A DNA stretch of 24,194 nucleotides from a virus: positions 1 through 24,194 of the IMG/VR virus record IMGVR_UViG_3300047562_003469. The stretch is one strand, 5' to 3'. Below, in pieces: positions 12,158-22,427 of this stretch. The notes below the pieces were generated by a model. The model saw only the letters and a list, made by a program, of their open reading frames with translations, was not told the origin of the DNA and searched no databases. Position numbers and translations under genes: made by a program. How positions within the stretch are numbered: the first letter of the stretch is position 1; every line of letters begins with the position of its first letter.

Positions 12158-12214
12158 AATATAGGGCATCTGGCTGCCTTTGGGGAGATTTGTGGACAGC
12201 CAGATAAGTGGCAC
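12158..12214 (-). promoter_or_regulatory. Promoter/stem-loop cassette, copy 1
   Basis: Minus strand: GTGCCAC-N8-CTGTCCAC (operator-like dyad), then a CTGGCTG/CAGCCAG stem with a 20-base loop, then TATATT (12163-12158) exactly 51 bases after the first base. TAGCCATGTTGAGAGGA follows and supplies the SD for the TNYETW gene. No TTGACA is present at -35. Confidence 0.8.
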
Positions 12215-12235
12215 AAAGGGACTTGACGGGGCTAA

Positions 12236-12484
12236 CTATTGCTGCTGTTGTTTAGCTAGCTCTTGACGGATCTTCTCATCCCAGTTAGAATCGGCTTGCT
12301 GGGGTAACAACGGAGCGGCTGGAGCTTCAAGAGAATAGGAAGAACGATTCGGAGAAGAATTGCTCATCTCTATTGTAGTTTTCTTGACCGTATTCACCAT
12401 GGAATCTAACATCGGAGCTACACCTGAGAAACCAACAGTTCCGACAGAGATTCCAAAGACTGTACCGAATAGAAAGCTTTTCAT
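12236..12484 (-). CDS. Membrane-anchored small protein, 82 aa
   Basis: The N-terminus MKSFLFGTVFGISVGTVGFSG is hydrophobic with one Lys, fitting a signal anchor or single membrane helix with a GxxxG-like glycine pattern. A polar linker rich in Ser, Pro and Ala follows (SNSSPNRSSYSLEAPAAPLLP), and then a charged tail ending QELAKQQQQ. I recall proteins of this design in many T4-like cyanophages, with no known role. Its ATG overlaps the stop of the 54-aa gene (ATGA), so the two are coupled. The C-terminal poly-Gln is encoded by CAA/CAG repeats. Confidence 0.82.
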   Translation of the reverse strand: MKSFLFGTVFGISVGTVGFSGVAPMLDSMVNTVKKTTIEMSNSSPNRSSYSLEAPAAPLLPQQADSNWDEKIRQELAKQQQQ

Positions 12485-12645
12485 CGTTTTGCAATCGTAA
12501 ACTGTTCAGGGCAACGATGTGGTTGAGTGTAAAGCTGGCCTTGGAGAATGTAATCCATCTGACAGAGATTGGGCCCTGTCTGATAATAACCAACGACTTC
12601 AGCTTGAGTCAGGAAAGCAGCAGCAAGAAGAGGAAAAAGTGCCAT
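12481..12645 (-). CDS. Small exported protein, 54 aa
   Basis: The product starts MALFPLLAAAFLTQAEVVGYY, a short hydrophobic N-terminus with a plausible signal-peptidase site after TQA. The mature part contains two cysteines (near residues 28 and 45) that could form a disulphide, and ends PEQFTIAKR. It begins 8 bases after the stop of the 50-aa gene and its stop overlaps the next ATG. An exported peptide co-expressed with a membrane-anchored one could act on the host envelope; that is inference. No family is recognised. Confidence 0.7.
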   Translation of the reverse strand: MALFPLLAAAFLTQAEVVGYYQTGPNLCQMDYILQGQLYTQPHRCPEQFTIAKR

Positions 12646-12653
12646 GTTAAATA

Positions 12654-12806
12654 TCAGAAATCGTGGCCAGATTCAAGCAGATTCTCAAAGCTAGTGCTGC
12701 GTGAGTTATCATCATAATAGTCCAGCTCATCCTGGAATTCTTTCAACTCTGGAAGATCCCAGATTTCACCAGGAGCATCAACAAACTCGCGGATTTGATC
12801 AGTCAT
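12654..12806 (-). CDS. Small acidic protein, 50 aa
   Basis: The product starts MTDQIREFVDAPGEIWDLPE and is strongly acidic in the middle (KEFQDELDYYDDNSR), ending LESGHDF. It is soluble and unrecognised. The ATG is preceded by CTAAGTAACAACA, a 16-base block (with the ATG) that occurs again at 17617-17602 without a full gene after it. It probably belongs to the unit driven by cassette copy 2, following the 105-aa gene. Confidence 0.7.
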   Translation of the reverse strand: MTDQIREFVDAPGEIWDLPELKEFQDELDYYDDNSRSTSFENLLESGHDF

Positions 12807-12844
12807 TGTTGTTACTTAGTGATGAATGGTTGACTATACTTAAC

Positions 12845-13162
12845 TCAGGCGATTCGCATTCCAGAGAAGAAAGGAATCGTACCATAATCCTTGGAAGTGA
12901 AGAACCATTCGCCTTTCTTTTGAAAGATACCTTCATCGCCAACACCATGGCCACGGAGAAGTGCATTCAGACGGCTTTTGGTGGTTACAGTCTGCCAACC
13001 ACCATCAAAGAGGCGCATCCAGGTATCACCAACCTCAGCAATCTTGTTGCCATGGAGATACACATAGCTTACGCCATCAATGTTAGAAACCTCAGTGTTA
13101 TCCAGTTTCCAATCAACCTCACGGGTGATGGCTTGGTTCATCAGAGTTTCAATCTTGCGCAT
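12845..13162 (-). CDS. Conserved small protein of unknown function, 105 aa
   Basis: From ATG 13162 the product reads MRKIETLMNQAITREVDWKL and contains V-Y-L-H-G-N-K-I-A-E-V-G followed by R-L-F-D-G-G-W-Q-T-V-T-T-K-S-R-L-N-A-L-L. I recall this combination from cyanophage and cyanobacterial hypothetical proteins; the H-G-N-K-I-A turn and beta-rich spacing suggest a small beta fold. The open frame continues 52 codons further upstream, but only through the GC-rich regulatory region with cassette copy 2, so the shorter start is chosen. No catalytic motif is visible. Confidence 0.8.
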   Translation of the reverse strand: MRKIETLMNQAITREVDWKLDNTEVSNIDGVSYVYLHGNKIAEVGDTWMRLFDGGWQTVTTKSRLNALLRGHGVGDEGIFQKKGEWFFTSKDYGTIPFFSGMRIA

Positions 13163-13213
13163 GGTTTGAGAAGTGAAATGGTTGTGGGAGGTCTCATCCC
13201 CCCCGATGTGGCC

Positions 13214-13275
13214 AATATACGGGGCCCAGGGGCCCAGCACAAGGGGGCCTGTGCCACTTAGCTGGCTGTCCATCC
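13214..13275 (-). promoter_or_regulatory. Promoter/stem-loop cassette, copy 2 (rearranged)
   Basis: TATATT (13219-13214) with GGCCACA downstream. The upstream half reads TGGACAGCCAGCTAAGTGGC, the reverse complement of the operator in copy 1, at the same distance from -10. Between them lie GCACAGGCCCCCTTGTGC (hairpin) and a doubled CTGGGCCCC. It would drive the 105-aa gene with a leader of about 45 bases. Confidence 0.6.
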
Positions 13276-13283
13276 CATGCCTC

Positions 13284-13311
13284 TGGCCGCCCCTGTAGGC
13301 CCTACAATGGC
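13284..13311. repeat. Nested palindrome in GC-rich intergenic stretch
   Basis: TGTAGG-C-CCTACA (13294-13306) is a perfect 6-bp palindrome around one base, flanked by TGGCC (13284-13288) and GGCCA (13307-13311), which can extend the stem across a small internal loop. It lies between the oxygenase gene and cassette copy 2 in about 230 bases with no gene. No T-run follows, so it is not a typical terminator. Confidence 0.5.
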
Positions 13312-13392
13312 CAGACAATCAGTAGAGGCCTGGGGTAGGGCTGTAGACGATGGCCAGATCGCCACTCAGCCTGCAATAAAATAAAATATAAC

Positions 13393-14019
13393 TTAGCGGT
13401 CAAAGATGAGATCAAAAGAGATAGAAATTCGGTCGGAATCAGTCAAATTCATTGATACCCCATGCATCAATGTAGCCGGGAATAAGAGTAACCTACCCTC
13501 CAATGGGCTAAATGATACTTTGTCAATAATGTTCGTCTTTTTCTTATACTCTGGTAGCCTACACACTGTCTCCATTGCTGCCTGAGCTTCCTGATAAAAG
13601 GATATATCACCAAACTCAGCTGCTGCATCCAATGTATCTGCCGATTTCACATAGAAGACACCGCTATACATCGTCATCGGATGTGAGTGTGCTACGTTAT
13701 AGTGATGATGGCCAGAAATGTTAATCCAAAGGCGCAAAAGTGTGATCTGAATATTCTCATCAATCATAAAGTGATCTGTGAGACATTCATTCACATTCTC
13801 AATTAGCCGCCTTTGAAAGAACTGAAACTCCGGATCTTTCTGAACATGAAATGCATCACTCTGCCAGCCACCAACGTTAGAGTAATGCTGACCTCTGGGA
13901 TCTTTCTCCCTTTCTTGATAGCAATACTCTATGAGCTGCTGGCGATATTGTGCATAATCAAGATCATCCGAAACTATAACCTGCTTCGGAAAAAGGTATG
14001 CAGATCTTATATCAAACAT
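13393..14019 (-). CDS. 2OG-Fe(II) oxygenase-like protein (TIGR02466 type)
   Basis: A 208-aa protein that fits the phage 2-oxoglutarate/Fe(II) dioxygenases common in cyanophages. A core strand (LLRLWINISGHHHYN) leads to A-H-S-H-P with H111 and H113 as the proximal metal ligands, then Y-S-G-V-F-Y-V. The distal part L-L-L-F-P-A-T-L-M-H-G-V supplies H186, and R197 in D-R-I-S-I-S-F-D is placed to hold the 2OG carboxylate. Family members have been proposed to hydroxylate proteins or alter host 2OG/nitrogen signalling, but the substrate is unknown. The start is ATG 14019, 12 bases after the upstream stop. It is the second gene under the TTGACA/TATACT promoter. Confidence 0.85.
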   Translation of the reverse strand: MFDIRSAYLFPKQVIVSDDLDYAQYRQQLIEYCYQEREKDPRGQHYSNVGGWQSDAFHVQKDPEFQFFQRRLIENVNECLTDHFMIDENIQITLLRLWINISGHHHYNVAHSHPMTMYSGVFYVKSADTLDAAAEFGDISFYQEAQAAMETVCRLPEYKKKTNIIDKVSFSPLEGRLLLFPATLMHGVSMNLTDSDRISISFDLIFDR

Positions 14020-14031
14020 TCGGTCTAGGTA

Positions 14032-14205
14032 TCACCAAACAGGGTCACGGCTGAAGTCCTCAATGTATGCTGAAACATTCTCAGCTGGTTCCAGATCAAA
14101 GAGTTTCTCCCAGTCAATGTCACGGGGATTAAAGTCACTTAGTACATCAAGCTCAAGAGTGATACGATACTTCTGTTTCTGGGCCTGTGAGTATACTTTG
14201 GACAT
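14032..14205 (-). CDS. Conserved small cyanophage protein, 57 aa
   Basis: The product starts MSKVYSQAQKQKYRI and contains LELDVLSDFNPRDIDWEKLF, then a short acidic end (VSAYIEDFSRDPVW). I recall the L-E-L-D-V-x-x-D-F-N-P-x-x-I-D-W-E-K motif from small proteins of other T4-like cyanophages, with no function. It has a usable SD (AGGA) six bases before ATG and lies directly behind a canonical sigma-70-type promoter, so it should be expressed early. The oxygenase gene follows it. Confidence 0.82.
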   Translation of the reverse strand: MSKVYSQAQKQKYRITLELDVLSDFNPRDIDWEKLFDLEPAENVSAYIEDFSRDPVW

Positions 14206-14237
14206 GGAAGTTCCTGTGGGGTAGACTAACTGTGGCT

Positions 14238-14266
14238 AGTATAATGCCCCTCTGAGTGTCTGTCAA
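14238..14266 (-). promoter_or_regulatory. Canonical sigma-70-type early promoter
   Basis: TTGACA (14266-14261), a 17-base spacer and TATACT (14243-14238) on the minus strand, followed by AGCCACA as in the cassette family. It lies 33 bases upstream of the 57-aa gene ATG. It is the only family member with a consensus -35 box and lacks the operator dyad. Confidence 0.85.
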
Positions 14267-14360
14267 GGGGGTTGGCCTATGTATCAGGGTTCTGGGTGAT
14301 TCTGGGCGGTCCGGGTGAAGAATTGTGAGGGTTCTGGGATATTCTCAGAGGGTGGTTGAC

Positions 14361-14389
14361 AATATAGGGATCGTGTGATAGCCTGCTCC
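14361..14389 (-). promoter_or_regulatory. Weak relative of the promoter cassette
   Basis: TATATT (14366-14361) is preceded by CCC, as in copies 1 and 7, and by an inverted repeat GTGAT...ATCAC with a 15-base loop. The operator dyad and the TAGCCATG downstream block are missing. If active it would run in tandem with the promoter at 14238-14266. Confidence 0.3.
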
Positions 14390-14423
14390 CTTAGATCACA
14401 ACGACTCAGAGGCTTTCTAAAGG

Positions 14424-14489
14424 TTTCTCTACACTTTTCCACAGTTTTTCCACAGATTTCTCTACACTTTTCCACAGCTTTTTCCACAA
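14424..14489. repeat. 33-bp tandem repeat carrying four TTTTCCACA (DnaA-box-like) sites
   Basis: Two imperfect 33-bp units (14424-14456 and 14457-14489), each with TTTCTCTACACTTTTCCACA followed by a second TTTTCCACA. The four sites are at 14435-14443, 14446-14454, 14468-14476 and 14480-14488, all in the same orientation on the plus strand. TTTTCCACA is one base from the E. coli DnaA box TTATCCACA and, from memory, is the form reported for Synechococcus. An AT-rich stretch follows. It may be a replication origin element or a DnaA-titrating site; neither is proven. Confidence 0.6.
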
Positions 14490-14545
14490 ATATATCAGCA
14501 AAAGCTAACACTCAGCTATAATTAAAAAAGGCTTTTTTTCTTAAC

Positions 14546-14983
14546 TCAATTATAATCAACCATTAACTTTCCTTCCAAATGATCAATTTCATGCTGTATG
14601 ATTCTTGAGTTCATCCCACCGAAAAGTACGCGATGAGGTTTACCTTTTTGATCACGAAACTTGACGATGATTTCTTTACTTCTCTCTATGCTACATGTTT
14701 CTCCTGGTATAGACAGACAACCTTCATCCATCACGATTGTTTCATTTGATTCCCACACAATCTCCGGATTGATAAGAGTAAATGCAACACCATTATTATC
14801 TTGATCACGAACCACAATGATTCTCTTGGATATACCTAACTGTGGTGCTGCCAGACCTATTCCATCATTCTGAATCATTGTATCAATCATGTTCGCAATC
14901 AGGTTACGAATACTATCATCAACCTTTGCAATTCTCTTTGATTTTGTCTTGAGAATCTTGTTTCCGATCGTAACTATTTCCAT
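14546..14983 (-). CDS. def: Peptide deformylase
   Basis: Removes the N-formyl group from nascent proteins. From ATG 14983 the enzyme is 145 aa, short compared with bacterial forms and typical of phage PDFs that lack the C-terminal helix. All three motifs are intact: G-I-G-L-A-A-P-Q (41-48), E-G-C-L-S (87-91, metal ligand C89) and Q-H-E-I-D-H (H131, E132, H135). The upstream ATG at 15007 is rejected because GGAGAAAG sits just before 14983. Cyanophage PDFs are known and have been linked to maturation of photosystem II D1 during infection. It is the last gene of an eight-gene unit and overlaps the membrane-protein gene upstream by 65 bases. Confidence 0.96.
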   Translation of the reverse strand: MEIVTIGNKILKTKSKRIAKVDDSIRNLIANMIDTMIQNDGIGLAAPQLGISKRIIVVRDQDNNGVAFTLINPEIVWESNETIVMDEGCLSIPGETCSIERSKEIIVKFRDQKGKPHRVLFGGMNSRIIQHEIDHLEGKLMVDYN

Positions 14984-15170
14984 GTGTACTTTCTCCTGGT
15001 ATGTCATTCCAATGTCTCACAACTCCTGCAATAATGAATAGATTAGTCATCAGATATGTGGCGAAGATGAGTGTACGAATCAGCGCGATTTTGTCTGATT
15101 CTTTATCACATTTACTTGCCTTTTCTCCTAATGCCTTTGCCCACCATCTCCATGCAGTTCTTTCTTTCAC
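14919..15170 (-). CDS. Small membrane protein overlapping def, 83 aa
   Basis: Starts at GTG 15170, overlapping the upstream stop by four bases (GTGA). The N-terminus R-T-A-W-R-W-W-A-K-A-L-G-E-K-A-S-K is basic and aromatic, followed by ALIRTLIFATYLMTNLFIIA as a single membrane segment (about residues 29-49), then R-H-W-N-D and a polar tail. I recall similar W-R-W-W-A proteins near deformylase in other cyanophages. The tail (about 20 residues) is encoded out of frame over the start of def, so the def SD lies inside this gene. Function unknown; a membrane role beside PDF is only suggestive. Confidence 0.78.
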   Translation of the reverse strand: MKERTAWRWWAKALGEKASKCDKESDKIALIRTLIFATYLMTNLFIIAGVVRHWNDIPGESTHGNSYDRKQDSQDKIKENCKG

Positions 15171-15397
15171 GGTCTCATTCTTGCCTGTAGTTTATACTTT
15201 GGGCCCTGCTCGTTAATGACAACAATCGTCAACACATCATCATTCAATTTCACGGAACATTCATCAGGGGCAATGTGCGAATCTATGCAATTCTTGATGT
15301 CCAAAAGTGTATCCTCTGAGAAGAGCTCAAAGGCAAACTCTAGCAGAATCTCGGAGATGAGTGATTTAATCTCGGCATCAGCCTCGTCCTCGGTCAT
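15167..15397 (-). CDS. Acidic protein of unknown function, 76 aa
   Basis: The product starts MTEDEADAEIKSLISEILLEF with a strongly acidic amphipathic helix, followed by a beta-like half (CSVKLNDDVLTIVVINEQG) and a basic end (YKLQARMRP). No family is recognised. The ATG is at 15397; a GATAAATA sequence about 15 bases upstream resembles a late promoter, which could give this gene and the two after it (membrane protein and def) a second, late expression phase. The stop overlaps the following GTG. Confidence 0.75.
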   Translation of the reverse strand: MTEDEADAEIKSLISEILLEFAFELFSEDTLLDIKNCIDSHIAPDECSVKLNDDVLTIVVINEQGPKYKLQARMRP

Positions 15398-15411
15398 GAC
15401 AGTTTTGAGAG

Positions 15412-15419
15412 TTATTTAT
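15412..15419 (-). promoter_or_regulatory. Possible late promoter inside the def operon
   Basis: GATAAATA on the minus strand, one base from the T4 late consensus TATAAATA, in the 26-base gap before the 76-aa gene. In this GC-richer block such a motif is less likely by chance than in the structural block, but there is no other support. Confidence 0.3.
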
Positions 15420-15423
15420 CAGT

Positions 15424-15687
15424 CTACCATGTACCTCTCTGAATGTAAATCTTGCGAATTTCTGTATAGATGAATCTACGAAGATTCTCATCTGTGGTAT
15501 TGTCAAAGGCATAATGCATCCGATTCAAATAGTCATCTTGTTTCACACATTTCACGACTTCTGCATTGGTCACACCAAGATCATTGAGTTTAGAACCTGC
15601 CTTGGCTTTGGGTCGTCCAAAGTTACCAGTGATGTTACCTGATGTTCTCAGTTTGGGACGAATCTTTGAGAGATTGGAATAGTTCAT
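15424..15687 (-). CDS. Small basic protein of unknown function, 87 aa
   Basis: The first 35 residues are basic and glycine-rich (IRPKLRTSGNITGNFGRPKA) and look disordered. The rest is helical (NAEVVKCVKQDDYLNRMHYAF and ENLRRFIYTEIRKIYIQRG). It is soluble with no recognisable domain; the basic N-terminus could contact nucleic acid. ATG 15687 overlaps the upstream stop (ATGA), so it is translated together with the 77-aa gene. It belongs to the unit from cassette copy 4. Confidence 0.75.
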   Translation of the reverse strand: MNYSNLSKIRPKLRTSGNITGNFGRPKAKAGSKLNDLGVTNAEVVKCVKQDDYLNRMHYAFDNTTDENLRRFIYTEIRKIYIQRGTW

Positions 15688-15917
15688 CGTGCAATCAGAT
15701 CAACGGATTCAAGCAACATCATCGCAAGTTCAGTATCATGATCATCCTTTGTGATTGGTATGTTTGCATCCACGAACTCAATAGAAAGTTCATGCAACAG
15801 ATCAATCATTCGTTCATCTGCAAATGCAAATGTTGCGAACTCATGTTTGAAACCATCACGCAACAGCTTGAGAGACTTGGTGACAGTCAGTTCGTTAATG
15901 TCTTGTTCGTAAGTCAT
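15684..15917 (-). CDS. Small acidic protein of unknown function, 77 aa
   Basis: From ATG 15917 the product is MTYEQDINELTVTKSLKLL and so on, mostly alpha-helical and acidic, with DERMIDLLHELSIEFVD in the middle and LAMMLLESVDLIAR at the end. An upstream start at 15956 would overlap the previous gene and is rejected; the chosen start lies two bases after that gene's stop. No motif or family is recognised. The helical content and the partner basic protein downstream are compatible with a small complex, but there is no direct evidence. Confidence 0.75.
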   Translation of the reverse strand: MTYEQDINELTVTKSLKLLRDGFKHEFATFAFADERMIDLLHELSIEFVDANIPITKDDHDTELAMMLLESVDLIAR

Positions 15918-15919
15918 AA

Positions 15920-16330
15920 TCAATTTGCGTAAAGATAGCCGCCAGACCAATCGCAATTCTGCAAAACATCCTCGCGGGATTGTTCATTCATGAGATCATA
16001 ACGAACACCTTTGGCAGGAGCTTTCCAGGATGCAGACTTGTAAACTTGTCCAGTCTGTTTGTCAATGAACGCATGAACAGAGCGAGAACCACCACCATCA
16101 ATCATGATCAGTTTGTGATACTTTTTACCCGTCTCAATCACATAATCAATCGGGCAAATACCTTGCTTGAGTTCATCAATGCGACGCTGATGATATTCTA
16201 CATTATCGGTTGAACGCTGATGAGAGCGAATAGAATACTGAATGTAATTGTGCTTCAATGCTTCAATCAGTGCCAGAGTGTAGTCATACACTTCGGTGGC
16301 AATGTCTTGTGTCTGAAGAGTTGCGTTCAT
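15920..16330 (-). CDS. Conserved phage protein of unknown function, 136 aa
   Basis: A helical N-terminal half (DIATEVYDYTLALIEALKHN) is followed by a basic RSHQRST region and then by the conserved part K-Y-H-K-L-I-M-I-D-G-G-G-S-R-S-V-H-A-F-I-D, T-G-x-V-Y-K-x-A-S-W-K-A-P-A-K-G-V-R. I recall the S-R-S-V-H-A-F-V/I-D ... S-W-K-A-P-A motif from many cyanophages and other phages, always hypothetical. The C-terminus NCDWSGGYLYAN is also typical. ATG 16330 overlaps the upstream stop. No signal peptide or membrane helix. Confidence 0.85.
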   Translation of the reverse strand: MNATLQTQDIATEVYDYTLALIEALKHNYIQYSIRSHQRSTDNVEYHQRRIDELKQGICPIDYVIETGKKYHKLIMIDGGGSRSVHAFIDKQTGQVYKSASWKAPAKGVRYDLMNEQSREDVLQNCDWSGGYLYAN

Positions 16331-16443
16331 TTCAGTTTGAGTAGAAGTGCCTTGAGAGCTTGCTTGCGAGATTTGATTTTACTCTTGGAAATACCTTTCG
16401 TTCGTTTAGGTTTTCCTGAGTTATGTTGCCAGTTCGGTGTCAT
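16327..16443 (-). CDS. Very small basic protein, 38 aa
   Basis: The product begins MTPNWQHNSGKPKRTKG and continues ISKSKIKSRKQALKALLLKLK, with about twelve Lys/Arg and no acidic residue. It starts two bases after the upstream stop and its own stop overlaps the next ATG, which is strong positional evidence for a translated frame. The C-terminal half would form a cationic amphipathic helix, so nucleic-acid or membrane binding is possible. No family recognised. Confidence 0.75.
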   Translation of the reverse strand: MTPNWQHNSGKPKRTKGISKSKIKSRKQALKALLLKLK

Positions 16444-16445
16444 GA

Positions 16446-16673
16446 TTAACCTCCAAACATTTCATCAAACAGATCACCCATCTCGCGCATTTCGTTCTGA
16501 CGATCAATCTGATTGCGCATCTCAATGAGTGCTTGCTGCTCCATCTTCAGCTTGAGAAGTTGATCACCAAGTTTGTGCAGCTTGTTGTTGATCTCAACAC
16601 GATCCAGCCCGTTCACAGTGGTAACAGTGATCGGCATACCTTGCGACATTGTGGTGCGTTCTGCGATGATCAT
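16446..16673 (-). CDS. Small coiled-coil protein, 75 aa
   Basis: From ATG 16673 the first 25 residues are beta-like (MPITVTTVNGLDRVEI). The rest is one long charged helix with heptad spacing (KLHKLGDQLLKLKMEQQALI, then EMRNQIDRQNEMREMGDLFD) ending EMFGG, a likely coiled coil. An AGAGGA SD lies eight bases before the ATG; the longer frame upstream runs through cassette copy 4 and is not used. It is the first of eight genes in the unit that ends with def. Confidence 0.82.
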   Translation of the reverse strand: MIIAERTTMSQGMPITVTTVNGLDRVEINNKLHKLGDQLLKLKMEQQALIEMRNQIDRQNEMREMGDLFDEMFGG

Positions 16674-16697
16674 GGGGTGATTCCTCTCAACATAGCC

Positions 16698-16754
16698 AAT
16701 ATACAGCATCTGGCTACCAATGGGGCGATCAGTGGACAGCCAGTCAACTGTCAC
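16698..16754 (-). promoter_or_regulatory. Promoter/stem-loop cassette, copy 4
   Basis: GTGACAG-N8-CTGTCCAC, then a CTGGCTG arm with TAGCCAG opposite (one G-T wobble), then TATATT (16703-16698) at the fixed 51-base distance, then GGCTATGTTGAGAGGA, which carries the SD. The TGA of the 71-aa gene upstream is formed by the first bases (GTGACAG) of this element. Confidence 0.8.
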
Positions 16755-16966
16755 TCATTCTCTACACTTTCTAGCAGATCATTCAATACTTCTCCATCAT
16801 ACAATTCTTCAATCTCAGAGAGTAGTTCTGCTTCAGTATATTTGTTATACTCAGCAACCAAAGATTCAATGGCAAAGGTGACAAGATCATCCATGTCCAT
16901 GCCATCTACAATATACTCCGAATATGCTTCAATCAGAGCAGCAAGTTTTTCGTTGGAAAGTGTCAT
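16751..16966 (-). CDS. Conserved acidic cyanophage protein, 71 aa
   Basis: The product starts MTLSNEKLAALIEAYSEYIV and contains D-G-M-D-M-D-D-L-V-T-F-A-I-E-S-L, ending in an acidic helix (LLSEIEELYDGEVLNDLLES). Net charge is strongly negative and no basic patch is present. I recall this A-Y-x-E-Y-I-V-D-G-M-D-M-D motif from many T4-like cyanophages, without a function. It starts 6 bases after the upstream stop and is the last gene under cassette copy 5; its TGA stop lies inside cassette copy 4. Confidence 0.85.
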   Translation of the reverse strand: MTLSNEKLAALIEAYSEYIVDGMDMDDLVTFAIESLVAEYNKYTEAELLSEIEELYDGEVLNDLLESVENE

Positions 16967-16972
16967 TTTGTT

Positions 16973-17173: not shown

Positions 17174-17180
17174 AATCAGT

Positions 17181-17360
17181 TCAGGCAAAAACAGTGGTGT
17201 AAAGATTCAGTTTGCCACCATAGCTTTCGTAGATGTTGACTTTAGAACCAGAAAGTTCTACACTCCAGTCATAAGCAACATCATAAGCTTGCTCAAGATC
17301 AGTGAACCATTCTGCATCATCTTTGCAGAAGTCTTCAGAGATCGGAAGGACAGCGAACAT
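17181..17360 (-). CDS. Small cyanophage protein, 59 aa
   Basis: The product starts MFAVLPISEDFCKDDAEWFT and continues DLEQAYDVAYDWSVELSGSK, ending with a beta hairpin (VNIYESYGGKLNLYTTVFA). A GGAG SD lies four bases before ATG 17360, supplied by the altered downstream part of cassette copy 5 (AACAAAGGAG). I recall F-C-x-D-D-A-x-W-F-T-D-L-E proteins in other cyanophages, hypothetical throughout. It is the first of three genes in its unit. Confidence 0.82.
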   Translation of the reverse strand: MFAVLPISEDFCKDDAEWFTDLEQAYDVAYDWSVELSGSKVNIYESYGGKLNLYTTVFA

Positions 17361-17385: not shown

Positions 17386-17442
17386 AATATACAGCATCTG
17401 GCTGCCTCTGGTGGGTTTAGTGGACAGTCATCGGATTGGCAC
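17386..17442 (-). promoter_or_regulatory. Promoter/stem-loop cassette, copy 5
   Basis: GTGCCAA-N8-CTGTCCAC, GGCAGCCAGATGCTG and TATATT (17391-17386) at 51 bases, then TAGCCATGTTGA. The left stem arm has changed to ATGACTG, so the CAGCCAG stem is weaker than in copies 1 and 6, while the operator right arm is intact. Confidence 0.75.
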
Positions 17443-17536: not shown

Positions 17537-17600
17537 TTTTTCTGTGATTCTGCTGCAGATGGGGGATTGGTCGGTCGCTGCAGCCAGAATCACAGAAAAA
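17537..17600 (-). terminator. Long hairpin, 22-bp stem with one bulge
   Basis: TTTTTCTGTGATTCTGCTGC plus AG (17537-17558) pairs with 17578-17600, with a single extra C as a bulge and a 19-base loop. On the minus strand it comes just after the six-gene unit and is followed by TCGGGTTTTTG. It can stop transcription from either side, but the stem is far longer than terminators elsewhere in this window. Confidence 0.6.
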
Positions 17601-17601
17601 C

Positions 17602-17617
17602 CATTGTTGTTACTTAG
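17602..17617 (-). repeat. Orphan copy of a gene leader (16 bp)
   Basis: CTAAGTAACAACAATG is identical to 12819-12804, where its ATG starts the 50-aa gene. Here the ATG is followed by only three more codons and a TGA, running into the long hairpin. Confidence 0.6.
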
Positions 17618-17619
17618 CG

Positions 17620-17775
17620 TCAATAATAGCCGTTGGACTTCTCAAACAAGCGACGATCTAGTGCCTCATCATATTCATCACCAGTGAGATAATCTTCCCA
17701 ACAACCACCATCATCATAGGTGCGGTTGCTATAATCGTAGGAGTAGGATTCGCCTTGATAAAAGTGAACAGTCAT
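17620..17775 (-). CDS. Small acidic Tyr-rich protein, 51 aa
   Basis: The product starts MTVHFYQGESYSYDYSNRTY and continues with DDGGCWEDYLTGDEYDEALD, ending FEKSNGYY. Nine tyrosines and eleven acidic residues in 51 make it unusual in composition. A GAGG SD precedes the ATG. It is the last of the six genes from cassette copy 6 and is followed by the long hairpin. I do not recognise it. Confidence 0.75.
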   Translation of the reverse strand: MTVHFYQGESYSYDYSNRTYDDGGCWEDYLTGDEYDEALDRRLFEKSNGYY

Positions 17776-17782
17776 GATAACC

Positions 17783-17989
17783 TCAGATAGTTTGCCAGGG
17801 TTGAGCTTCTTTGATGTTGCTGTTGTAATACTTGCGGAAGATTGAGTTAATCACAGGATACCAAGGCTCATTGGCACTCGGATACCCACAATCTGCAGCA
17901 TGTTGAAGAAACTTAAGGATGCAAGTTTCTTCATCTTTGGTGAAATTGACTCGGTTGAGTGTGTAACCAGTGTTCATAGTTTCAGTCAT
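17783..17989 (-). CDS. Small protein of unknown function, 68 aa
   Basis: The product starts MTETMNTGYTLNRVNFTKDE and continues as a helix with two cysteines (ETCILKFLQHAADCGYPSAN), ending YNSNIKEAQPWQTI. ATG 17989 shares one base with the upstream stop (TGATG); a TTG one codon earlier is ignored. No domain recognised. It lies seven bases before the Tyr-rich gene. Confidence 0.75.
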   Translation of the reverse strand: MTETMNTGYTLNRVNFTKDEETCILKFLQHAADCGYPSANEPWYPVINSIFRKYYNSNIKEAQPWQTI

Positions 17990-18267
17990 CAAACCAGTTG
18001 AAGTTCTTGTGCAGGTTGAACAGAATAGGTGAAGCGTTTGGCAGTGACTGAGACAGCATTAGCTGGTGCTCCCAGTTCATCAACAATTTCCCAGAAGTCT
18101 TCGCCCTCTTCAATCACAACATAACCGAAAGTTCCAGGTTGTGAGAGTTGACGACGACCACACTGTTTGGCATCATTCAGATTGTCAAATCGTTCTTTGC
18201 GATTAAACCAACCTAGCCGAGCAACATCTTCAGAAGGGCCAAAAGTGATGCAGATAAAGTCAGTCAT
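17989..18267 (-). CDS. Small protein of unknown function, 92 aa
   Basis: The product starts MTDFICITFGPSEDVARLGW and continues FNRKERFDNLNDAKQCGRRQ, then a beta hairpin (FGYVVIEEGEDFWEIVD) and a hydrophobic-polar end. The pattern of a strand, a helix with D-A-K and then Y-V-V-I-E suggests a small alpha/beta fold, like the many short phage proteins that process a parameter next to a strand. No catalytic motif is visible. It starts three bases after the preceding stop. Confidence 0.75.
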   Translation of the reverse strand: MTDFICITFGPSEDVARLGWFNRKERFDNLNDAKQCGRRQLSQPGTFGYVVIEEGEDFWEIVDELGAPANAVSVTAKRFTYSVQPAQELQLV

Positions 18268-18270
18268 GAT

Positions 18271-18432
18271 TCAGACAGTTGGAGTAACGTCGATTTCTTT
18301 AATGTTCAACCCACAGAGTTGATTGTAGACACGATTGAGAATAATTTTAGCACCAGACTTTGCTTTGGATTTCTCATACCAGATGGTGCAAAGACCATCA
18401 TAGGTTTCAACGTAAATGCGATAGTTTTTCAT
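18271..18432 (-). CDS. Conserved small cyanophage protein, 53 aa
   Basis: From ATG 18432 the product starts MKNYRIYVETYDGLCTIWYE and contains K-S-G-A-K-I-I-L-N-R-V-Y-N-Q-L-C-G-L-N-I-K-E-I-D-V-T-P. I recall this Y-R-x-Y-V-E-T-Y-D-G and N-I-K-E-I-D-V-T-P design from T4-like cyanophages; it predicts a beta-alpha-beta mini-domain. Longer upstream starts overlap the previous gene and are not used; this ATG lies two bases after the previous stop. Confidence 0.82.
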   Translation of the reverse strand: MKNYRIYVETYDGLCTIWYEKSKAKSGAKIILNRVYNQLCGLNIKEIDVTPTV

Positions 18433-18434
18433 TA

Positions 18435-18653
18435 TCAAACAGGAAAAACAAGTTTGTATTTGGAGATTAACAAATCTCTTACACATTCACGGTCAATACT
18501 ATCACCACAGAACTCATCTCCTTTCAGTTCAAGTATTTTGATGTGTGTAAGAGTTGCTTGTTCAATCAGGTCCAATGTTGCACTCATAGGATACAATCCA
18601 CCAGCACCATAGAAAGAAAGAACATAATCGTAAAACTCTTGGAGGTTAGACAT
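18435..18653 (-). CDS. Conserved small protein, 72 aa
   Basis: From ATG 18653 the product starts MSNLQEFYDYVLSFYGAGGLYPMS and continues TLDLIEQATLTHIKILELKG, then F-C-G-D-S-I-D-R-E-C-V-R-D-L-L. The combination of Y-P-M-x-A-T-L, then G-D-S-x-D-R-E-x-V-R-D, is one I recall from other cyanophages and some phages of heterotrophs, without a function. All-helical prediction. A GGAGG sequence lies inside the gene near its start and is not its SD. Confidence 0.8.
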   Translation of the reverse strand: MSNLQEFYDYVLSFYGAGGLYPMSATLDLIEQATLTHIKILELKGDEFCGDSIDRECVRDLLISKYKLVFPV

Positions 18654-18655
18654 AA

Positions 18656-18880
18656 TCAGTACAGGAGAGAGAATGAACCACAGAAGCGACGAACCCACTG
18701 GAGAGTATCATAATGGGAGCGTGGCTTGCTCATCACCATGCTAGTGTTCTTCTCAGGATTGAGAGCAATCGCAACATACTGATGATCACATTCTTGCCAT
18801 TCAGGTGTAACTTGCTGAATGAACATTTGGCAGACTTTGCCTTCTTTCCAGTTGGTAGTGTAGTGAAAGACTTCAGTCAT
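18656..18880 (-). CDS. Small protein of unknown function, 74 aa
   Basis: The product starts MTEVFHYTTNWKEGKVCQMF and contains ECDHQYVAIALNPEKNTSMV, ending RRFCGSFSLLY. It is mostly beta with a helical end (YDTLQWVRRF). No family is recognised. There is no convincing SD before ATG 18880; the leader comes from cassette copy 6 (TGTTGAGACAAAC and then ACCGCGA). First of six genes in its unit. Confidence 0.75.
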   Translation of the reverse strand: MTEVFHYTTNWKEGKVCQMFIQQVTPEWQECDHQYVAIALNPEKNTSMVMSKPRSHYDTLQWVRRFCGSFSLLY

Positions 18881-18906
18881 TCGCGGTCGTTTGTCTCAAC
18901 ATGGCT

Positions 18907-18963
18907 AATATACAGGATCTGGCTGCCCGTGGTGAGATCAGTGGACAGCCAGTCAACTGGCAC
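18907..18963 (-). promoter_or_regulatory. Promoter/stem-loop cassette, copy 6
   Basis: GTGCCAG-N8-CTGTCCAC, a CTGGCTG/CAGCCAG stem with a 20-base loop, TATATT (18912-18907) at 51 bases, then TAGCCATGTTGAGACAAAC. This is one of the cleanest copies. A weak -35 (TCACCA) with a 17-base spacer is possible. Confidence 0.8.
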
Positions 18964-18972
18964 ATGGGTCAA

Positions 18973-19182
18973 TTAGTATCCCAAAGCTTTTGGTAGACCA
19001 ACAGCAACAAAGAAAGCTAGAAGTGCTACGATGTCCCAACATTTGTTCTCAATCATGTAGGGAACCGCAAGAGCATTGCCAGCAAGATATAACCTAGCAC
19101 CAATCACATCATCAACATACAGTGTGATAATGTATGCGACACAGAGAAACAAACTGGACAGGATTCGTGCTTTGTTTGTCAT
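18973..19182 (-). CDS. Small membrane protein, 69 aa
   Basis: From ATG 19182 there are two or three membrane segments: ILSSLFLCVAYIITLYV (about residues 7-23), an amphipathic middle (LYLAGNALAVPYMI) and DIVALLAFFVAVGLPKALG (about 50-68). The loops are short and the C-terminus ends GY. ATG shares one base with the upstream stop. Function unknown; early membrane proteins of cyanophages may remodel the thylakoid or cytoplasmic membrane, but this is not visible here. Confidence 0.75.
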   Translation of the reverse strand: MTNKARILSSLFLCVAYIITLYVDDVIGARLYLAGNALAVPYMIENKCWDIVALLAFFVAVGLPKALGY

Positions 19183-19352
19183 CAAACTGCGGTTTTAATT
19201 TTATCGTAGAGTGAATCAAAATCTGGATCTTGTGAGTAAAATGGTTTAGTTTCACTCACATATTCCATGATTTGCTCTAGCAAAATCAGTTCATCTTCAG
19301 TTAGATTTTCTATCGTAAGATTGAGTGTCATCATCAGCATTTCTTTTGGCAT
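19182..19352 (-). CDS. Small acidic protein, 56 aa
   Basis: The product starts MPKEMLMMTLNLTIENLTED and continues ELILLEQIMEYVSETKPFYS, ending SLYDKIKTAV. An internal ATG would give a 50-aa form starting MTLNLT. It has the look of a small helical protein (L-T-x-D-E-L-x-L-L-E-Q-I-M-x-Y-V). It overlaps the upstream membrane-protein gene by 56 bases in another frame, and the next gene by one base. Confidence 0.7.
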   Translation of the reverse strand: MPKEMLMMTLNLTIENLTEDELILLEQIMEYVSETKPFYSQDPDFDSLYDKIKTAV

Positions 19353-19446
19353 AACTCTCAAGATTGTCTAGGTGATTAAGACGCGGTGAGAATAGACAAA
19401 ACAGTGCCCATCCCACCGCAGAAGATATAATCAAGAACTCTAACAT
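19297..19446 (-). CDS. Small membrane protein, 49 aa
   Basis: The product starts MLEFLIISSAVGWALFCLFS, a single membrane segment, followed by a polar tail (RLNHLDNLESYAKRNADDD) that is probably cytoplasmic. The last third overlaps the next gene in a different frame. The ATG lies inside the end of the upstream gene. The tight overlaps on both sides argue for real translation, but small size keeps confidence moderate. Confidence 0.65.
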   Translation of the reverse strand: MLEFLIISSAVGWALFCLFSPRLNHLDNLESYAKRNADDDTQSYDRKSN

Positions 19447-19688
19447 GCGCCTGCCATAGGATTAACATTCTTGACCTCAGTGTTAAACCCAGTCACCTCC
19501 CAGCCAAGACCAATGCGCTCATCCATTTCACGCTCAAAGTCACGCTTAGTGATGCACTTGTAGGACATGGTATCAACACCTTGAAACTTGAGCACTTTGA
19601 ACATAAATTGAGTGCTATCTTTGACAGGATAGTAGTCAACAACCATGGAAGGCTTGCCGTCAATTTTAGAGATGCAGGAAAGTTGCAT
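19440..19688 (-). CDS. Small protein of unknown function, 82 aa
   Basis: The product starts MQLSCISKIDGKPSMVVDYY and contains FMFKVLKFQGVDTMSYKCIT, then DERIGLGWEVTGFNTEVKNV. It appears beta-rich with a helix (KRDFEREMDERIG) and no known motif. The start is ATG 19688 behind cassette copy 7, whose leader has GTTGAGACAAACACCCC and no strong SD. First of four genes in its unit. Confidence 0.75.
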   Translation of the reverse strand: MQLSCISKIDGKPSMVVDYYPVKDSTQFMFKVLKFQGVDTMSYKCITKRDFEREMDERIGLGWEVTGFNTEVKNVNPMAGAC

Positions 19689-19711
19689 GGGGTGTTTGTC
19701 TCAACATGGCT

Positions 19712-19770
19712 AATATAGGGCATTAGCACAGAGAACACAAGGCCCCCTGTGCCACTTTGCGAACTGTCAC
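19712..19770 (-). promoter_or_regulatory. Promoter/stem-loop cassette, copy 7 (variant stem)
   Basis: GTGACAG at 19770, TATATT (19717-19712) 53 bases later, then TAGCCATGTTGAGACAAAC. The middle is replaced by AAGTGGCACAGG and a GCACAG/CTGTGC stem with a 15-base loop, shared in part with copy 2. The TGA stop of the nucleotidyltransferase gene lies within GTGACAG. Confidence 0.75.
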
Positions 19771-20660
19771 CAGTTCTTTGCTAAGTTAAAATTAGCACGG
19801 GAGAATTGCTCACGGTCAACAATCTTGAACATGCCAAGCTCGTTAGTCATGACATAACCTTCATGATCGCTACGCTGACCATCAATCTCGCAAGAAATGT
19901 CAGGATCAGATTCAATGTAGCAGAACATATCCATCTTGATGGAATACACCAACTTCCACAAACGGATCAGGTTGATGTCAACATTGCAATTTTCTGCAAT
20001 TTCATCCTCATCAACATCCTTACCCTCACGGATGTAAGAATTGATCACCTTTTTCAGTTCTTTTGCTTGTTTGTCACTCACAAATGCGCAGAGAGTAGAC
20101 ATTTGCTTGGCAAACTTGCAGAACTCTTCAATATCATCACGATAAGGAGAGATTTCTGCTTCTGGTTTGACAAACATCACATTTGCAGTATCAATCCACA
20201 GATAAAAGTCAGGTTCAGCAACTGCATCGCGCAGATCTTTCTTTGCAGAATAACAAGTGTGCGGAGCAATGATAATCTTTTGAGTGATTACTTGCGGGAA
20301 ACGGTAAGTAATGGTGTTGGGGCGATAAGTGTCAGAACCGCCAAAGCCAATAAAGTCACCTTGAACGATACCTGCGATGCGAGGAAGATAATCAAAACAA
20401 GCATGAAGAATGTCTGCAACCTTACCTTCATGGTTTGTATCAATTTCTTCATGAGAATGATTGATTTTGATTTTAACTTTGTTGAAAACTGATTTAGTAC
20501 CGACAAAGAACTTACCATTGGCAGGATTGGTGCCCCAAACAATCGCAGGAGCACCATCAATCTTGACACTGAGAGTAGAATCTGCAGTGAACCAATCAAG
20601 AACGGAAAGATCACCGTTCAGGATGCAATCTTCGGGATGTTCGAGGTGAGTGTTTTTCAT
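19767..20660 (-). CDS. Covalent nucleotidyltransferase / ligase-like protein (KxDG)
   Basis: A 297-aa protein with the ordered motifs of the ATP-dependent ligase and capping enzyme superfamily. Motif I is S-V-K-I-D-G-A-P with the AMP-acceptor lysine K33. Near residues 99-106 V-Q-G-D-F-I-G-F fits motif III. D-H-E-G-Y-V-M-T (266-272) fits motif IV with E267, and M-F-K-I-V (277-281) supplies the motif V lysine K279. I recall phage proteins of this kind annotated as DUF6267, but cannot check. It could ligate or adenylate RNA, DNA or a protein; the substrate is unknown, and no OB-fold is visible. It is alone in its unit and starts almost at the predicted transcription start. Confidence 0.78.
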   Translation of the reverse strand: MKNTHLEHPEDCILNGDLSVLDWFTADSTLSVKIDGAPAIVWGTNPANGKFFVGTKSVFNKVKIKINHSHEEIDTNHEGKVADILHACFDYLPRIAGIVQGDFIGFGGSDTYRPNTITYRFPQVITQKIIIAPHTCYSAKKDLRDAVAEPDFYLWIDTANVMFVKPEAEISPYRDDIEEFCKFAKQMSTLCAFVSDKQAKELKKVINSYIREGKDVDEDEIAENCNVDINLIRLWKLVYSIKMDMFCYIESDPDISCEIDGQRSDHEGYVMTNELGMFKIVDREQFSRANFNLAKNW

Positions 20661-20666
20661 GTGGCT

Positions 20667-20724
20667 AATATACAGGAAAAACCACTCTCGCGGGTGGTTT
20701 GGTGGACAGCCCTCAAACTGTCAC
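20667..20724 (-). promoter_or_regulatory. Promoter/stem-loop cassette, copy 8 (terminator-like stem, no leader)
   Basis: GTGACAG-N8-CTGTCCAC, then AAACCAC/GTGGTTT around an 8-base loop with TT following, then TATATT (20672-20667). The first seven bases give the TGA stop of the 60-aa gene. The downstream TGTTGAG part is missing: ATG follows the -10 box by six bases, so the mRNA should be leaderless. Confidence 0.8.
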
Positions 20725-20903
20725 TTGTCTGATTCTTTATACAATTTCAGCGTATTAAACTGATTACGATATACAACAACATTCACATCATGAGACTTAT
20801 GTGATCCCTTTTTTACCAAGACGCAAATATATTGATCACACACAAAAGATACGACTCCAAGAAAGTTTTTGTAATAAACTTGCGTACCTTCGGCGTAAAT
20901 CAT
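20721..20903 (-). CDS. Small SH3-like beta protein, 60 aa
   Basis: From ATG 20903, overlapping the upstream stop (ATGA), the product reads MIYAEGTQVYYKNFLGVVSF and then CDQYICVLVKKGSHKSHDVN, VVVYRNQFNTLKLYKESDK. The order of strands (G-T-x-V-Y ... F-x-G-V-V-x-F-V ... Y-I-C-V-L-V ... V-V-V-Y) suggests a five-stranded KOW or SH3-like barrel; I recall related short cyanophage proteins with the same layout. It is the last gene of the nine-gene unit from cassette copy 9. Confidence 0.78.
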   Translation of the reverse strand: MIYAEGTQVYYKNFLGVVSFVCDQYICVLVKKGSHKSHDVNVVVYRNQFNTLKLYKESDK

Positions 20904-21097
20904 TCTTCGCAATCTCCTGGAATCATAATGTCAATGAAAGTCCATTGTTCTGGGTTTTGATCATCAACAACATACTCAAGATAGAGGGCATGTGCATCCA
21001 TTGATTTTCCCTCATCATAGAGTTCGGTGATACGCTCTTGAGCAAAAGCTTCAAGAGAATCTACCATAAACTCACGAAGTTTTTCAGTTGCGTTCAT
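20900..21097 (-). CDS. Small acidic protein, 65 aa
   Basis: From ATG 21097 the product is MNATEKLREFMVDSLEAFAQ, ERITELYDEGKSMDAHALYL, then EYVVDDQNPEQWTFIDIMIP and ending GDCEE. Helical in the first two thirds with an acidic C-terminus. Both ends overlap neighbours by four bases (ATGA). No family recognised. Confidence 0.77.
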   Translation of the reverse strand: MNATEKLREFMVDSLEAFAQERITELYDEGKSMDAHALYLEYVVDDQNPEQWTFIDIMIPGDCEE

Positions 21098-21393
21098 GAG
21101 AAACATGCCTCCAATGCTGTTTGTTTGATGGGCATAGCCGTGTAAGGTCTAGTATTCTCAATCTTCACAACTTTGCCAACAGTTTTGCTATTTACAGGAC
21201 TATAGAATATGTCTTTCTTGACATCATAGAATCCCCAGATTGTGCGGGTTGGTTTACCCAAATTGTAATCAAACTGACGATTAGTGCATAACCAAATAGA
21301 AAAAATCCCACGCTTAAAAGTTTCAACTTTGTAGAAATAACCATCTGGTGCTTCATGAGGAAATGAAATAATTGCCTTGATTGATGGATTCAT
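21094..21393 (-). CDS. Small protein of unknown function, 99 aa
   Basis: From ATG 21393 the product starts MNPSIKAIISFPHEAPDGYF and continues YKVETFKRGIFSIWLCTNRQ, then a stretch with F-D-Y-N-L-G-K-P-T-R-T-I-W-G-F-Y-D. It is beta-rich with a basic end (VGKVVKIENTRPYTAMPIKQ). No motif recognised; ATG overlaps the upstream stop by one base. Confidence 0.75.
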   Translation of the reverse strand: MNPSIKAIISFPHEAPDGYFYKVETFKRGIFSIWLCTNRQFDYNLGKPTRTIWGFYDVKKDIFYSPVNSKTVGKVVKIENTRPYTAMPIKQTALEACFS

Positions 21394-21560
21394 CAGCAAT
21401 CGTATTCTTTGATGAGAGTGAGGAGTTTGATTTGTTCTTGAAGTTGATTGATCTCTTTGTTTTGTTCAGAGATTTTAGTTTGCAGTTGAATAATTCGCTG
21501 CTGGTAATTAAACTTGAGTTGGCCAATCATCTGGTTTGTGTGTTCAACGTGGCTTGTCAT
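21393..21560 (-). CDS. Small coiled-coil protein, 55 aa
   Basis: The product starts MTSHVEHTNQMIGQLKFNYQ and continues QRIIQLQTKISEQNKEINQL, QEQIKLLTLIKEYDC. Leu and Ile fall at a/d heptad positions from about residue 22 to 50, so it should form a parallel coiled coil, with a C-terminal Cys that could cross-link a dimer. No DNA-binding domain is evident. It overlaps both neighbours by one base (TGATG). Confidence 0.78.
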   Translation of the reverse strand: MTSHVEHTNQMIGQLKFNYQQRIIQLQTKISEQNKEINQLQEQIKLLTLIKEYDC

Positions 21561-21805
21561 CAGGTAGTAAACGAATCAACGACTTTGGACTCTTCGGTAT
21601 TATCAGCAAGAGCAAAAACTCTTGCATTATAGATATTTTCTTTCAAATCGCTGTAGAACTTTTCATAAAAGTTGCCATCATCTTCAGCAACGATCAAATC
21701 AAAACATTCATCATCACTTTCAGCAACCACATTCCAAAGTCCGCCATATTCTGAACTTGGAAAAGGAACATAGTGATCAACGATGTAGAGAAACTTTTGT
21801 GTCAT
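21560..21805 (-). CDS. Conserved small cyanophage protein, 81 aa
   Basis: The product starts MTQKFLYIVDHYVPFPSSEY, then G-G-L-W-N-V-V-A-E-S-D-D-E-C-F-D-L-I, and NFYEKFYSDLKENIYNARVF, ending VDSFTT. I recall the Y-x-V-P-F-P-x-S-E-Y-G-G-L opening and the D-x-E-C-F-D-L from other cyanophages, with no role. A GAGAGG sequence lies about 18 bases before the ATG, rather far for an SD. Confidence 0.8.
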   Translation of the reverse strand: MTQKFLYIVDHYVPFPSSEYGGLWNVVAESDDECFDLIVAEDDGNFYEKFYSDLKENIYNARVFALADNTEESKVVDSFTT

Positions 21806-21831
21806 TTTTGTTTGTAAATTACCTCTCTAGT

Positions 21832-21942
21832 TTAACGAAAATCTGTGTTATTGTCAACATCATCTTGATCAGACGCGATTGACAGTAAAGAAAATCCAAT
21901 AGACAAAATCATCACAAGAGCAAAAAGTGCAATGTAAGTCAT
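21832..21942 (-). CDS. Very small membrane protein, 36 aa
   Basis: The product starts MTYIALFALVMILSIGFSLL and continues SIASDQDDVDNNTDFR: one membrane segment and a short acidic tail. It overlaps the upstream stop by four bases (ATGA), which supports translation. Size and hydrophobicity recall holin-like or host-membrane peptides, but nothing distinguishes these. Confidence 0.65.
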   Translation of the reverse strand: MTYIALFALVMILSIGFSLLSIASDQDDVDNNTDFR

Positions 21943-22064
21943 ACAAACTCCGCAATGTAATAATCCATTGTCACTTCATACTTTGCAGCTTCACGCTCCC
22001 ACTCTTGCCATTGATCGTCATCAGCAAGACATTCAAGCAAAATCATTTGATCTTCATTCATCAT
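21939..22064 (-). CDS. Small acidic cyanophage protein, 41 aa
   Basis: The product starts MMNEDQMILLECLADDDQWQ and ends TMDYYIAEFV. The ending M/V-D-Y-Y-I-A-E-F-V is one I recall from short cyanophage proteins. Both ends overlap neighbours by four bases. Two ATGs in tandem make the exact start ambiguous by one codon. Confidence 0.72.
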   Translation of the reverse strand: MMNEDQMILLECLADDDQWQEWEREAAKYEVTMDYYIAEFV

Positions 22065-22198
22065 TTCACGCAAGCAATTTGATTAGAATTACTACCACAA
22101 CTGGTTGTTTGTGGTAGTATAGATGAGTCTTTAAGAAATGTATTGTGAATTAAAAATCCACAAAACAAGATCAGAAGAGCATCACCAAGTCGGTTCAT
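22061..22198 (-). CDS. Small exported or membrane protein, 45 aa
   Basis: The product starts MNRLGDALLILFCGFLIHNT, a hydrophobic N-terminus, and ends with a Ser/Asn-rich part carrying cysteines (TTSCGSNSNQIACVK), which could form a disulphide outside the membrane. The coding sequence contains a perfect 10-bp hairpin (22091-22118). It starts four bases after the upstream stop and overlaps the next start. Confidence 0.62.
   Translation of the reverse strand: MNRLGDALLILFCGFLIHNTFLKDSSILPQTTSCGSNSNQIACVK
22091..22118 (-). other. 10-bp hairpin inside the 45-aa gene
   Basis: ACTACCACAA (22091-22100) pairs perfectly with TTGTGGTAGT (22109-22118) around an 8-base loop. It lies in the last third of the gene, about 30 bases before the start of the next one, with no T-run after it. 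It may control passage to, or translation of, the downstream genes. Confidence 0.55.
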
Positions 22199-22202
22199 TC
22201 AA

Positions 22203-22346
22203 TCACCCAAAAACAGCAGTTACACCCATAACTTTTGCGTTAGGGTTACGAGCAAGTGCAACTTGTTTTGCATCTTGATAGTCACGGGCTTCTACCTCTT
22301 CATAGAAAACTTTGCCAGCAACATAGAGTTGAACTTTGCAGCGCAT
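22203..22346 (-). CDS. Conserved small cyanophage protein, 47 aa
   Basis: From ATG 22346 the product starts MRCKVQLYVAGKVFYEEVEA, then RDYQDAKQVALARNPNAKVM and ends GVTAVFG. I recall the pattern V-Q-L-x-x-x-x-x-x-F/Y-x-E-x-V-E-A-R-D-Y-x-x-A and R-N-P-x-A-x-V-x-G-V-T-A-V-F-G as strongly conserved among T4-like cyanophages. It predicts a beta-alpha-beta mini-fold. The SD AGAGGA comes from cassette copy 9. First of nine genes in its unit. Confidence 0.85.
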   Translation of the reverse strand: MRCKVQLYVAGKVFYEEVEARDYQDAKQVALARNPNAKVMGVTAVFG

Positions 22347-22370
22347 GGAGTGATTCCTCTCAACATGGCT

Positions 22371-22427
22371 AATATACAGGATTTGGCTCGGTTTGGCAAG
22401 CATGGTAGACAGCCACTAAATTGTCAC
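22371..22427 (-). promoter_or_regulatory. Promoter/stem-loop cassette, copy 9
   Basis: GTGACAA-N8-CTGTCTAC, a TGGCT/AGCCA stem, TATATT (22376-22371) at 51 bases and TAGCCATGTTGAGAGGA. TTGCCA at -35 with a 17-base spacer is the best -35 among the cassette copies. Confidence 0.8.

Follow-up and report, generated by a model that had tools for sequence, protein, structure and literature searches.

The question raised by a 24,194-base viral fragment (IMG/VR record IMGVR_UViG_3300047562_003469, positions 1 to 24,194; hereafter the window) is what purpose is served by a family of repeated elements of about 60 bases, each of which stands before an operon of small genes. The fragment is from a T4-like cyanophage (Kyanoviridae). 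The elements are read here as early-type, activator-dependent promoters, in which a dimeric protein bound at a palindrome would contact RNA polymerase, and this reading is given a probability of roughly 0.7.

A sequence-only reading of the window had described seven copies of the element, and all seven proved real, at the coordinates given. They lie on the minus strand, begin with GTG[AC]CA and end with TATATT, the offset between the two being 51 bases in five copies, 52 in the copy at 20667-20724 and 53 in that at 19712-19770 (Table 1). The count was one short, since a diverged eighth copy had been overlooked, and the downstream sequence TAGCCATGTTGA, which had been ascribed to six copies, is exact in only five, with TGGCTATGTTGA found at 16698 and TAGCCACATGAA at 20667. 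In the conserved core, a palindromic operator is separated by a fixed gap from a -10 box; its general form is GTGNCASTTNNNNAASTGNCAC-N30-TATAAT. The window carries a sub-variant, GTGNCAGTYNNNNGRCTGTCCAC-N28-TATATT followed by AGCCATGTTGAGA; its right arm, CTGTCCAC, is one base longer and its gap is 28, so that the distance from operator to -10 is nearly that of the symmetric form. Such composites are rarely produced by chance: TGTCYACN{27,30}TATANT has six matches in the window, compared with a mean of 0.06 and a maximum of 1 in 100 dinucleotide shuffles, and the reversed form of the pattern has none there.

Table 1. Putative promoter elements of the window, the features associated with them and the genes that they precede.
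Feature	Position	Strand	Parts	Gene opened
Element 1	12158..12214	-	dyad 12192-12214, spacer 28, -10 TATATT 12158-12163	11872-12135 (DUF7249)
Stem in element 1			9 bp, ATCTGGCTG/CAGCCAGAT, overlapping the dyad	
Eighth, diverged element	13214..13272	-	TATATTGGCCACATC; dyad, spacer 30, TATATT 13214-13219	Kyano_Gp96 gene (inside open reading frame 12845-13318)
Possible divergent promoter	13251..13308	+	dyad in common with eighth element; TACAAT 13303-13308; 29.5 bits	
Element 2	16698..16754	-	dyad 16732-16754, spacer 28, TATATT 16698-16703	16446-16673 (phrog_3146)
Element 3	17386..17442	-	dyad 17420-17442, spacer 28, TATATT 17386-17391	17181-17360
Element 4	18907..18963	-	dyad 18941-18963, spacer 28, TATATT 18907-18912	18656-18880
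Stem in element 4			7 bp, CTGGCTG/CAGCCAG	
Element 5	19712..19770	-	symmetric dyad GTGACAGTTCGCAAAGTGGCAC 19749-19770, TATATT 19712-19717	
GC-rich hairpin of element 5	19718-19748			
Element 6	20667..20724	-	dyad 20702-20724, -10 TATATT 20667-20672	19767-20660 (DUF6267); ATG 6 nt past -10
Intrinsic terminator	20677..20700	-	AAACCACCCGCGAGAGTGGTTTTT, between dyad and -10 of element 6	
Element 7	22371..22427	-	dyad 22405-22427, spacer 28, TATATT 22371-22376	22203-22346 (phrog_685)

By its own terms, the sequence-only reading would have been refuted by a lack of further copies and of conservation in relatives, but both were found, the copies being many and the conservation strong. A scan of the 2.9 million viral contigs of IMG/VR for CTGTCCAC and TATATTRGCCAY separated by a gap of 15 to 35 recovered 52 stretches, and the gap was exactly 28 or 29 in 52 of 56 matches. 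The same spacing was seen in 89 of 102 non-redundant elements drawn from all loci, where gaps of 24-33 were scored without penalty, and a looser pattern gave 31 matches distributed over all 16 of 16 phage records (0 for the reversed control). When IMG/VR contigs were scanned for the symmetric dyad with gaps of 16 to 46 permitted, TATANT followed 111 of 206 dyads at a gap of 29, 30 or 31 (11, 64 and 36, respectively), compared with 0-7 at any other gap. Weight-matrix scanning revealed about 12 copies in 22 kb of a 162-kb contig (G004) and several apiece in S-CAM9, S-T4, S-8S55 and the contig G008; the density in the window is eight in about 10 kb of small-gene region.

Phages of both Synechococcus and Prochlorococcus carry the element, which is present in Syn9, P-TIM40, P-HM2, P-SSM2, S-PM2, S-RSM4, S-CAM9 and S-T4, and the symmetric operator GTGNCASTTNNNNAASTGNCAC occurs in S-PM2 (five copies), P-SSM2 (four), P-HM2, P-TIM40, G008 and the window. 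Among 20 records searched, no copy of this operator turned up in T4, RB49 or Ma-LMM01, and its reversed control gave 0 matches; neither a perfect dyad nor a composite of dyad, gap and TATANT was found in T4 or RB49. An origin of the composite as a host (cyanobacterial) promoter was rejected, as a search of 257 Gb of bacterial and archaeal genomes returned a single match, in Oceanobacillus, which is the level expected by chance.

The placement of the elements also supports the earlier proposal that they are promoters opening small-gene operons. The first ATG lies mostly 27-35 bases past the start of the -10 box, in window-like and symmetric sets alike, while the dyad is located at, or within, the 3' end of the preceding gene; that of element 6, for example, includes the stop codon of gene 20721-20912. 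In P-TIM40, seven copies lie between 46 and 55 kb. A TATANT or TATTAT box follows each dyad at a distance of 29-30 bases, which is 30 in all but one copy, and all seven are 27-38 bases upstream of annotated starts. Syn9 has elements at 43114, 44775, 47205 and 49079, among others, and gp55, gp61, gp68 and gp75 are preceded by them. The annotated start of Syn9 (L058) gp61, at 44804, falls upstream of the -10 box of its element (44827), and translation more likely begins at an in-frame ATG at 44855. The element could serve as an annotation signal in metagenomic phages, marking operon starts and probable early genes and permitting gene starts to be corrected, as for gp61. The possibility that ATGTTGAGA encodes a leader peptide was rejected after inspection by eye showed that its frame relative to the gene varies among copies. 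An Rfam search of the window matched nothing, and the element therefore corresponds to no known RNA family.

Fixed spacing, a palindrome near -52, a weak -35 region and a nearby start codon together argue for activation by a dimeric protein. According to this model, a dimeric DNA-binding protein would bind the 22-23 bp palindrome, the centre of which lies about 52 bases upstream of the putative transcription start, and transcription would begin a few bases past TATATT; the fixed distance between operator and -10 box would then reflect a requirement that the bound protein touch RNA polymerase. The operator-like dyad near -52 noticed in the sequence-only reading is upheld by these data. What the sequences show directly is the motif itself, its spacing, orientation, conservation and placement before genes, together with the excess of nested terminators; that the units act as promoters, that the bound protein activates and does not repress them, that they fire early and where transcription begins are inferred. 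If the promoters are early, their activator would be needed at the time of infection, and is therefore expected either to come from the host, as a regulator conserved among picocyanobacteria, or to be carried in the virion. To our knowledge no protein has been identified that guides RNA polymerase to the early genes of marine T4-like cyanophages, and the fixed-spacing operator GTGNCASTTNNNNAASTGNCAC-N30-TATAAT provides a bait with which such an activator might be found.

One observation weighs against a general need for an activator. A hexamer resembling the -35 consensus in at least four of six positions was found in 23% of 81 window-like elements, compared with 10% in shuffles, and in 34% of the symmetric elements, compared with 13% in shuffles. 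The -35 hexamer, absent as a consensus according to the sequence-only reading, is thus degenerate rather than missing, and with a third of the symmetric elements possessing one, some copies may function without an activator. The same hexamers, present in about a quarter to a third of copies, would suit a different arrangement, in which the promoters initially fire unaided and a phage repressor, with the dyad as its operator, shuts the operons later; a palindrome beside many promoters is likewise what a phage-wide repressor would use. Repressor sites usually overlap the -35 or -10 region and have no need of a fixed phase, whereas here the centre of the dyad falls near -52, farther upstream than the -35 region, at a fixed distance from the -10 box and next to a mostly poor -35. 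These features fit an activator better, and repression is considered unlikely.

The stem-loops proposed in the sequence-only reading have no uniform form. In a minority of elements the gap between operator and -10 box is itself an intrinsic terminator, with its T run adjoining the -10 box, as at 20677-20700 in the window, 118878 in S-T4, 114036 in S-CAM9 and 68769 in P-SSM2. A strict terminator test was passed by 8 of 81 window-like elements (1.0 in shuffles, maximum 4) and by 16 of 115 symmetric elements (3.0 in shuffles, maximum 7), so that a clear terminator is present in about 10-14% of copies, which is 5-8 times the chance level, and most copies are without one. A lax version of the test (22 observed, 14 expected) was dropped because TATATT itself supplies T residues. 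Stems of at least seven pairs were seen in 18 of 81 elements, compared with 5.0 expected. The window has one clear intrinsic terminator and one GC-rich hairpin (Table 1), and in the elements at 12158, 16698 and 18907 a stem of 6-9 bp overlaps the dyad and lacks a T run.

These hairpins could be taken to mean that the units are mainly terminators or RNA structures between operons, the dyad being an RNA feature, a view that also draws on the folding of box and spacer (mean z of -1.09, compared with -0.34 for random stretches) and on the enrichment of gap terminators. It is nevertheless highly improbable, given how few copies carry a clear terminator and that stem registers vary from copy to copy while the letters of the dyad and its distance from the -10 box are conserved. 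A single stem conserved in all copies was likewise rejected: besides the differing registers, the mean stem between box and spacer is 4.05 bp, only slightly more than the 3.71 bp obtained after swapping between elements. Because terminators occupy only a minority of gaps and differ in sequence, termination appears, on the available sequences, to be a recurrent passenger of the gap and not a defining part of the element. Under the activator model, with the dyad at or in the tail of the gene before it and a terminator in a minority of gaps, the unit of about 60 bases would both close the upstream operon and start the next.

Before the DUF6267 gene, a dyad stands together with a terminator, the terminators differing in sequence, in the window, L055, G004, G008, L098, L143, L151, L155 and L173. 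Many relatives have other sequences upstream of the same gene, so that covariation cannot simply be tested at a single orthologous position. In L157, L161, L166-L169 and others, the dyad element is replaced by a motif resembling CTNGGNCCTTYAAAGTGTCCCTATAGT that abuts the ATG of the DUF6267 homologues and may represent a leaderless promoter belonging to a different group of phages.

Gene order is broken more often where elements lie. Synteny between neighbouring homologues of window genes was broken in 46 of 53 pairs separated by an element and in 42 of 93 other pairs (p=5e-7). Alignments ended inside elements in 10.3% of cases (16.5% at an identity of at least 80%), compared with 4-7% for controls, an enrichment of about 1.5 to 2.5 times over shifted positions or the expectation from length. 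Element 1 has an orthologue in L054, but the genes that follow the two copies are unrelated (11872-12135 in the window), while the sequences on either side remain collinear. All three observations are what would be expected if the elements were recombination cassettes, repeats kept for the homologous exchange of modules with regulation secondary. The excess of synteny breaks, however, shrinks as the distance limit is tightened, from p=1e-4 at 800 bp through 0.012 at 400 bp to a non-significant 0.28 at 250 bp, and the fixed spacing and conservation of the -10 box would still require explanation by a promoter; recombination as the primary role is very unlikely. Exchange at the elements in the manner of promoter(early)-stem-loop (PeSL) cassettes is supported, not proven, by these comparisons of sequences, the synteny signal being confounded in part by distance. 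A doubtful, though not implausible, extension of the activator model is that the element is a spreading, self-contained cassette of marine T4-like cyanophages, made of an activator operator, a -10 box and, between them, an optional intrinsic terminator. Such a cassette would end the upstream operon within the promoter of the following one and, being served by a single early activator that is virion-borne or host-derived, would drive any module placed behind it.

Several elements can be followed individually into relatives. The element upstream of Kyano_Gp96 has counterparts before the homologous gene in P-TIM40 and L054, that at 22371-22427 is orthologous to L055 1195-1251, and the orthologue of element 5, at about 3923-3981 in L055, has an altered hairpin. 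The possible divergent promoter at 13251-13308 has a stronger counterpart at 2247-2304 of L054 (TATAAT, 37.6 bits). At both sites a single dyad is apparently shared by two divergent -10 boxes with conserved spacing, and a dyad in P-SSM2 (66556-66613, minus strand) is likewise usable both ways.

The left part of the window encodes the baseplate proteins gp6 and gp25, beyond which lie genes for a 2OG-Fe(II) oxygenase, a peptide deformylase, Kyano_Gp96 and many small proteins of unknown function, on the minus strand. The order helicase, small genes, gp25, gp6 is matched in Syn9, S-CAM9, S-8S55 and S-RIM12. A 333-amino-acid protein encoded at 22806-23807 has weak matches to DNA methylases and no homologue in the cyanophages compared. 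Four DnaA-box-like TTTTCCACA sites are clustered in 54 bases at 14435-14488, with the same foursome at 1612-1665 of L054; the cluster may mark a replication origin or a region bound by DnaA. A near-perfect sigma-70 promoter (TTGACA-17-TATACT) is found at 14238-14266 on the minus strand, with no recognised dyad and followed by AGCCACAGTT; it is kept in L054, and its start region is similar to those of the dyad elements. A consensus scan of the region for sigma-70 promoters and terminators gave counts no higher than in shuffles.

Among known systems, PeSL cassettes were reportedly described by Arbiol in 2010 and Comeau in 2014 in RB49, phi1, PST and nt-1, and those of RB49 and phi1 were the comparison drawn in the sequence-only reading. 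PeSLs are reportedly strong sigma-70 promoters with a terminator in every unit. The likeness holds for repeated promoter and stem-loop units amid the small genes of a variable region, where genes are swapped, and for the many copies there (8 in about 10 kb of the window, about 12 in 22 kb of G004). It extends in part to nested terminators, which are enriched but missing from most units, and to synteny breaks, which are enriched but partly confounded by distance. It fails in that the terminator is present in a minority of units, the operator takes the place of the -35, and a strong sigma-70 early promoter with a -35 is not the rule (at least four of six positions in 23-34% of copies). PeSLs were also weighed in a study of S-PM2 that cites the earlier descriptions, and few were found in that phage (PMC4503421).

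T4 middle promoters, with their MotA box, and T4 late promoters likewise belong to a phage and depart from the standard in their upstream part or -10. The MotA box is positioned near -30, whereas the dyad here is centred near -52, and the -10 box here is TATATT or TATAAT and not TATAAATA. T4-type middle promoters, and motA and/or asiA, are missing in marine T4-like cyanophages (cited in PMC5780444). NtcA-type cyanobacterial promoters similarly combine a palindromic activator site upstream of the -10 with the lack of a strong -35, but NtcA recognises GTA-N8-TAC near -41, in contrast to the consensus GTGNCAST...ASTGNCAC centred at about -52.

The closest relationship is with the element of Doron et al. 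2016 (ISME J 10:1437), said to be a novel regulatory element controlling the early genes of Syn9, with similar results in P-TIM40, and to be conserved among T4-like cyanophages. Both Syn9 and P-TIM40 carry a dyad, gap and TATANT upstream of small-gene operons, as does a wide range of T4-like cyanophages; the promoter is therefore very probably that early-gene element, an identification made from the shared phages and location. The suggestion in the sequence-only reading that a cyanophage version with an operator would be new is consequently not supported. What may be new are the window sub-variant, with its CTGTCCAC arm, TATATT, AGCCATGTTGAGA leader and high copy number, the nested terminator and the cassette-like behaviour; if these hold true, a terminator-in-promoter design and cassette-borne exchange of modules would both be novelties among cyanophages.

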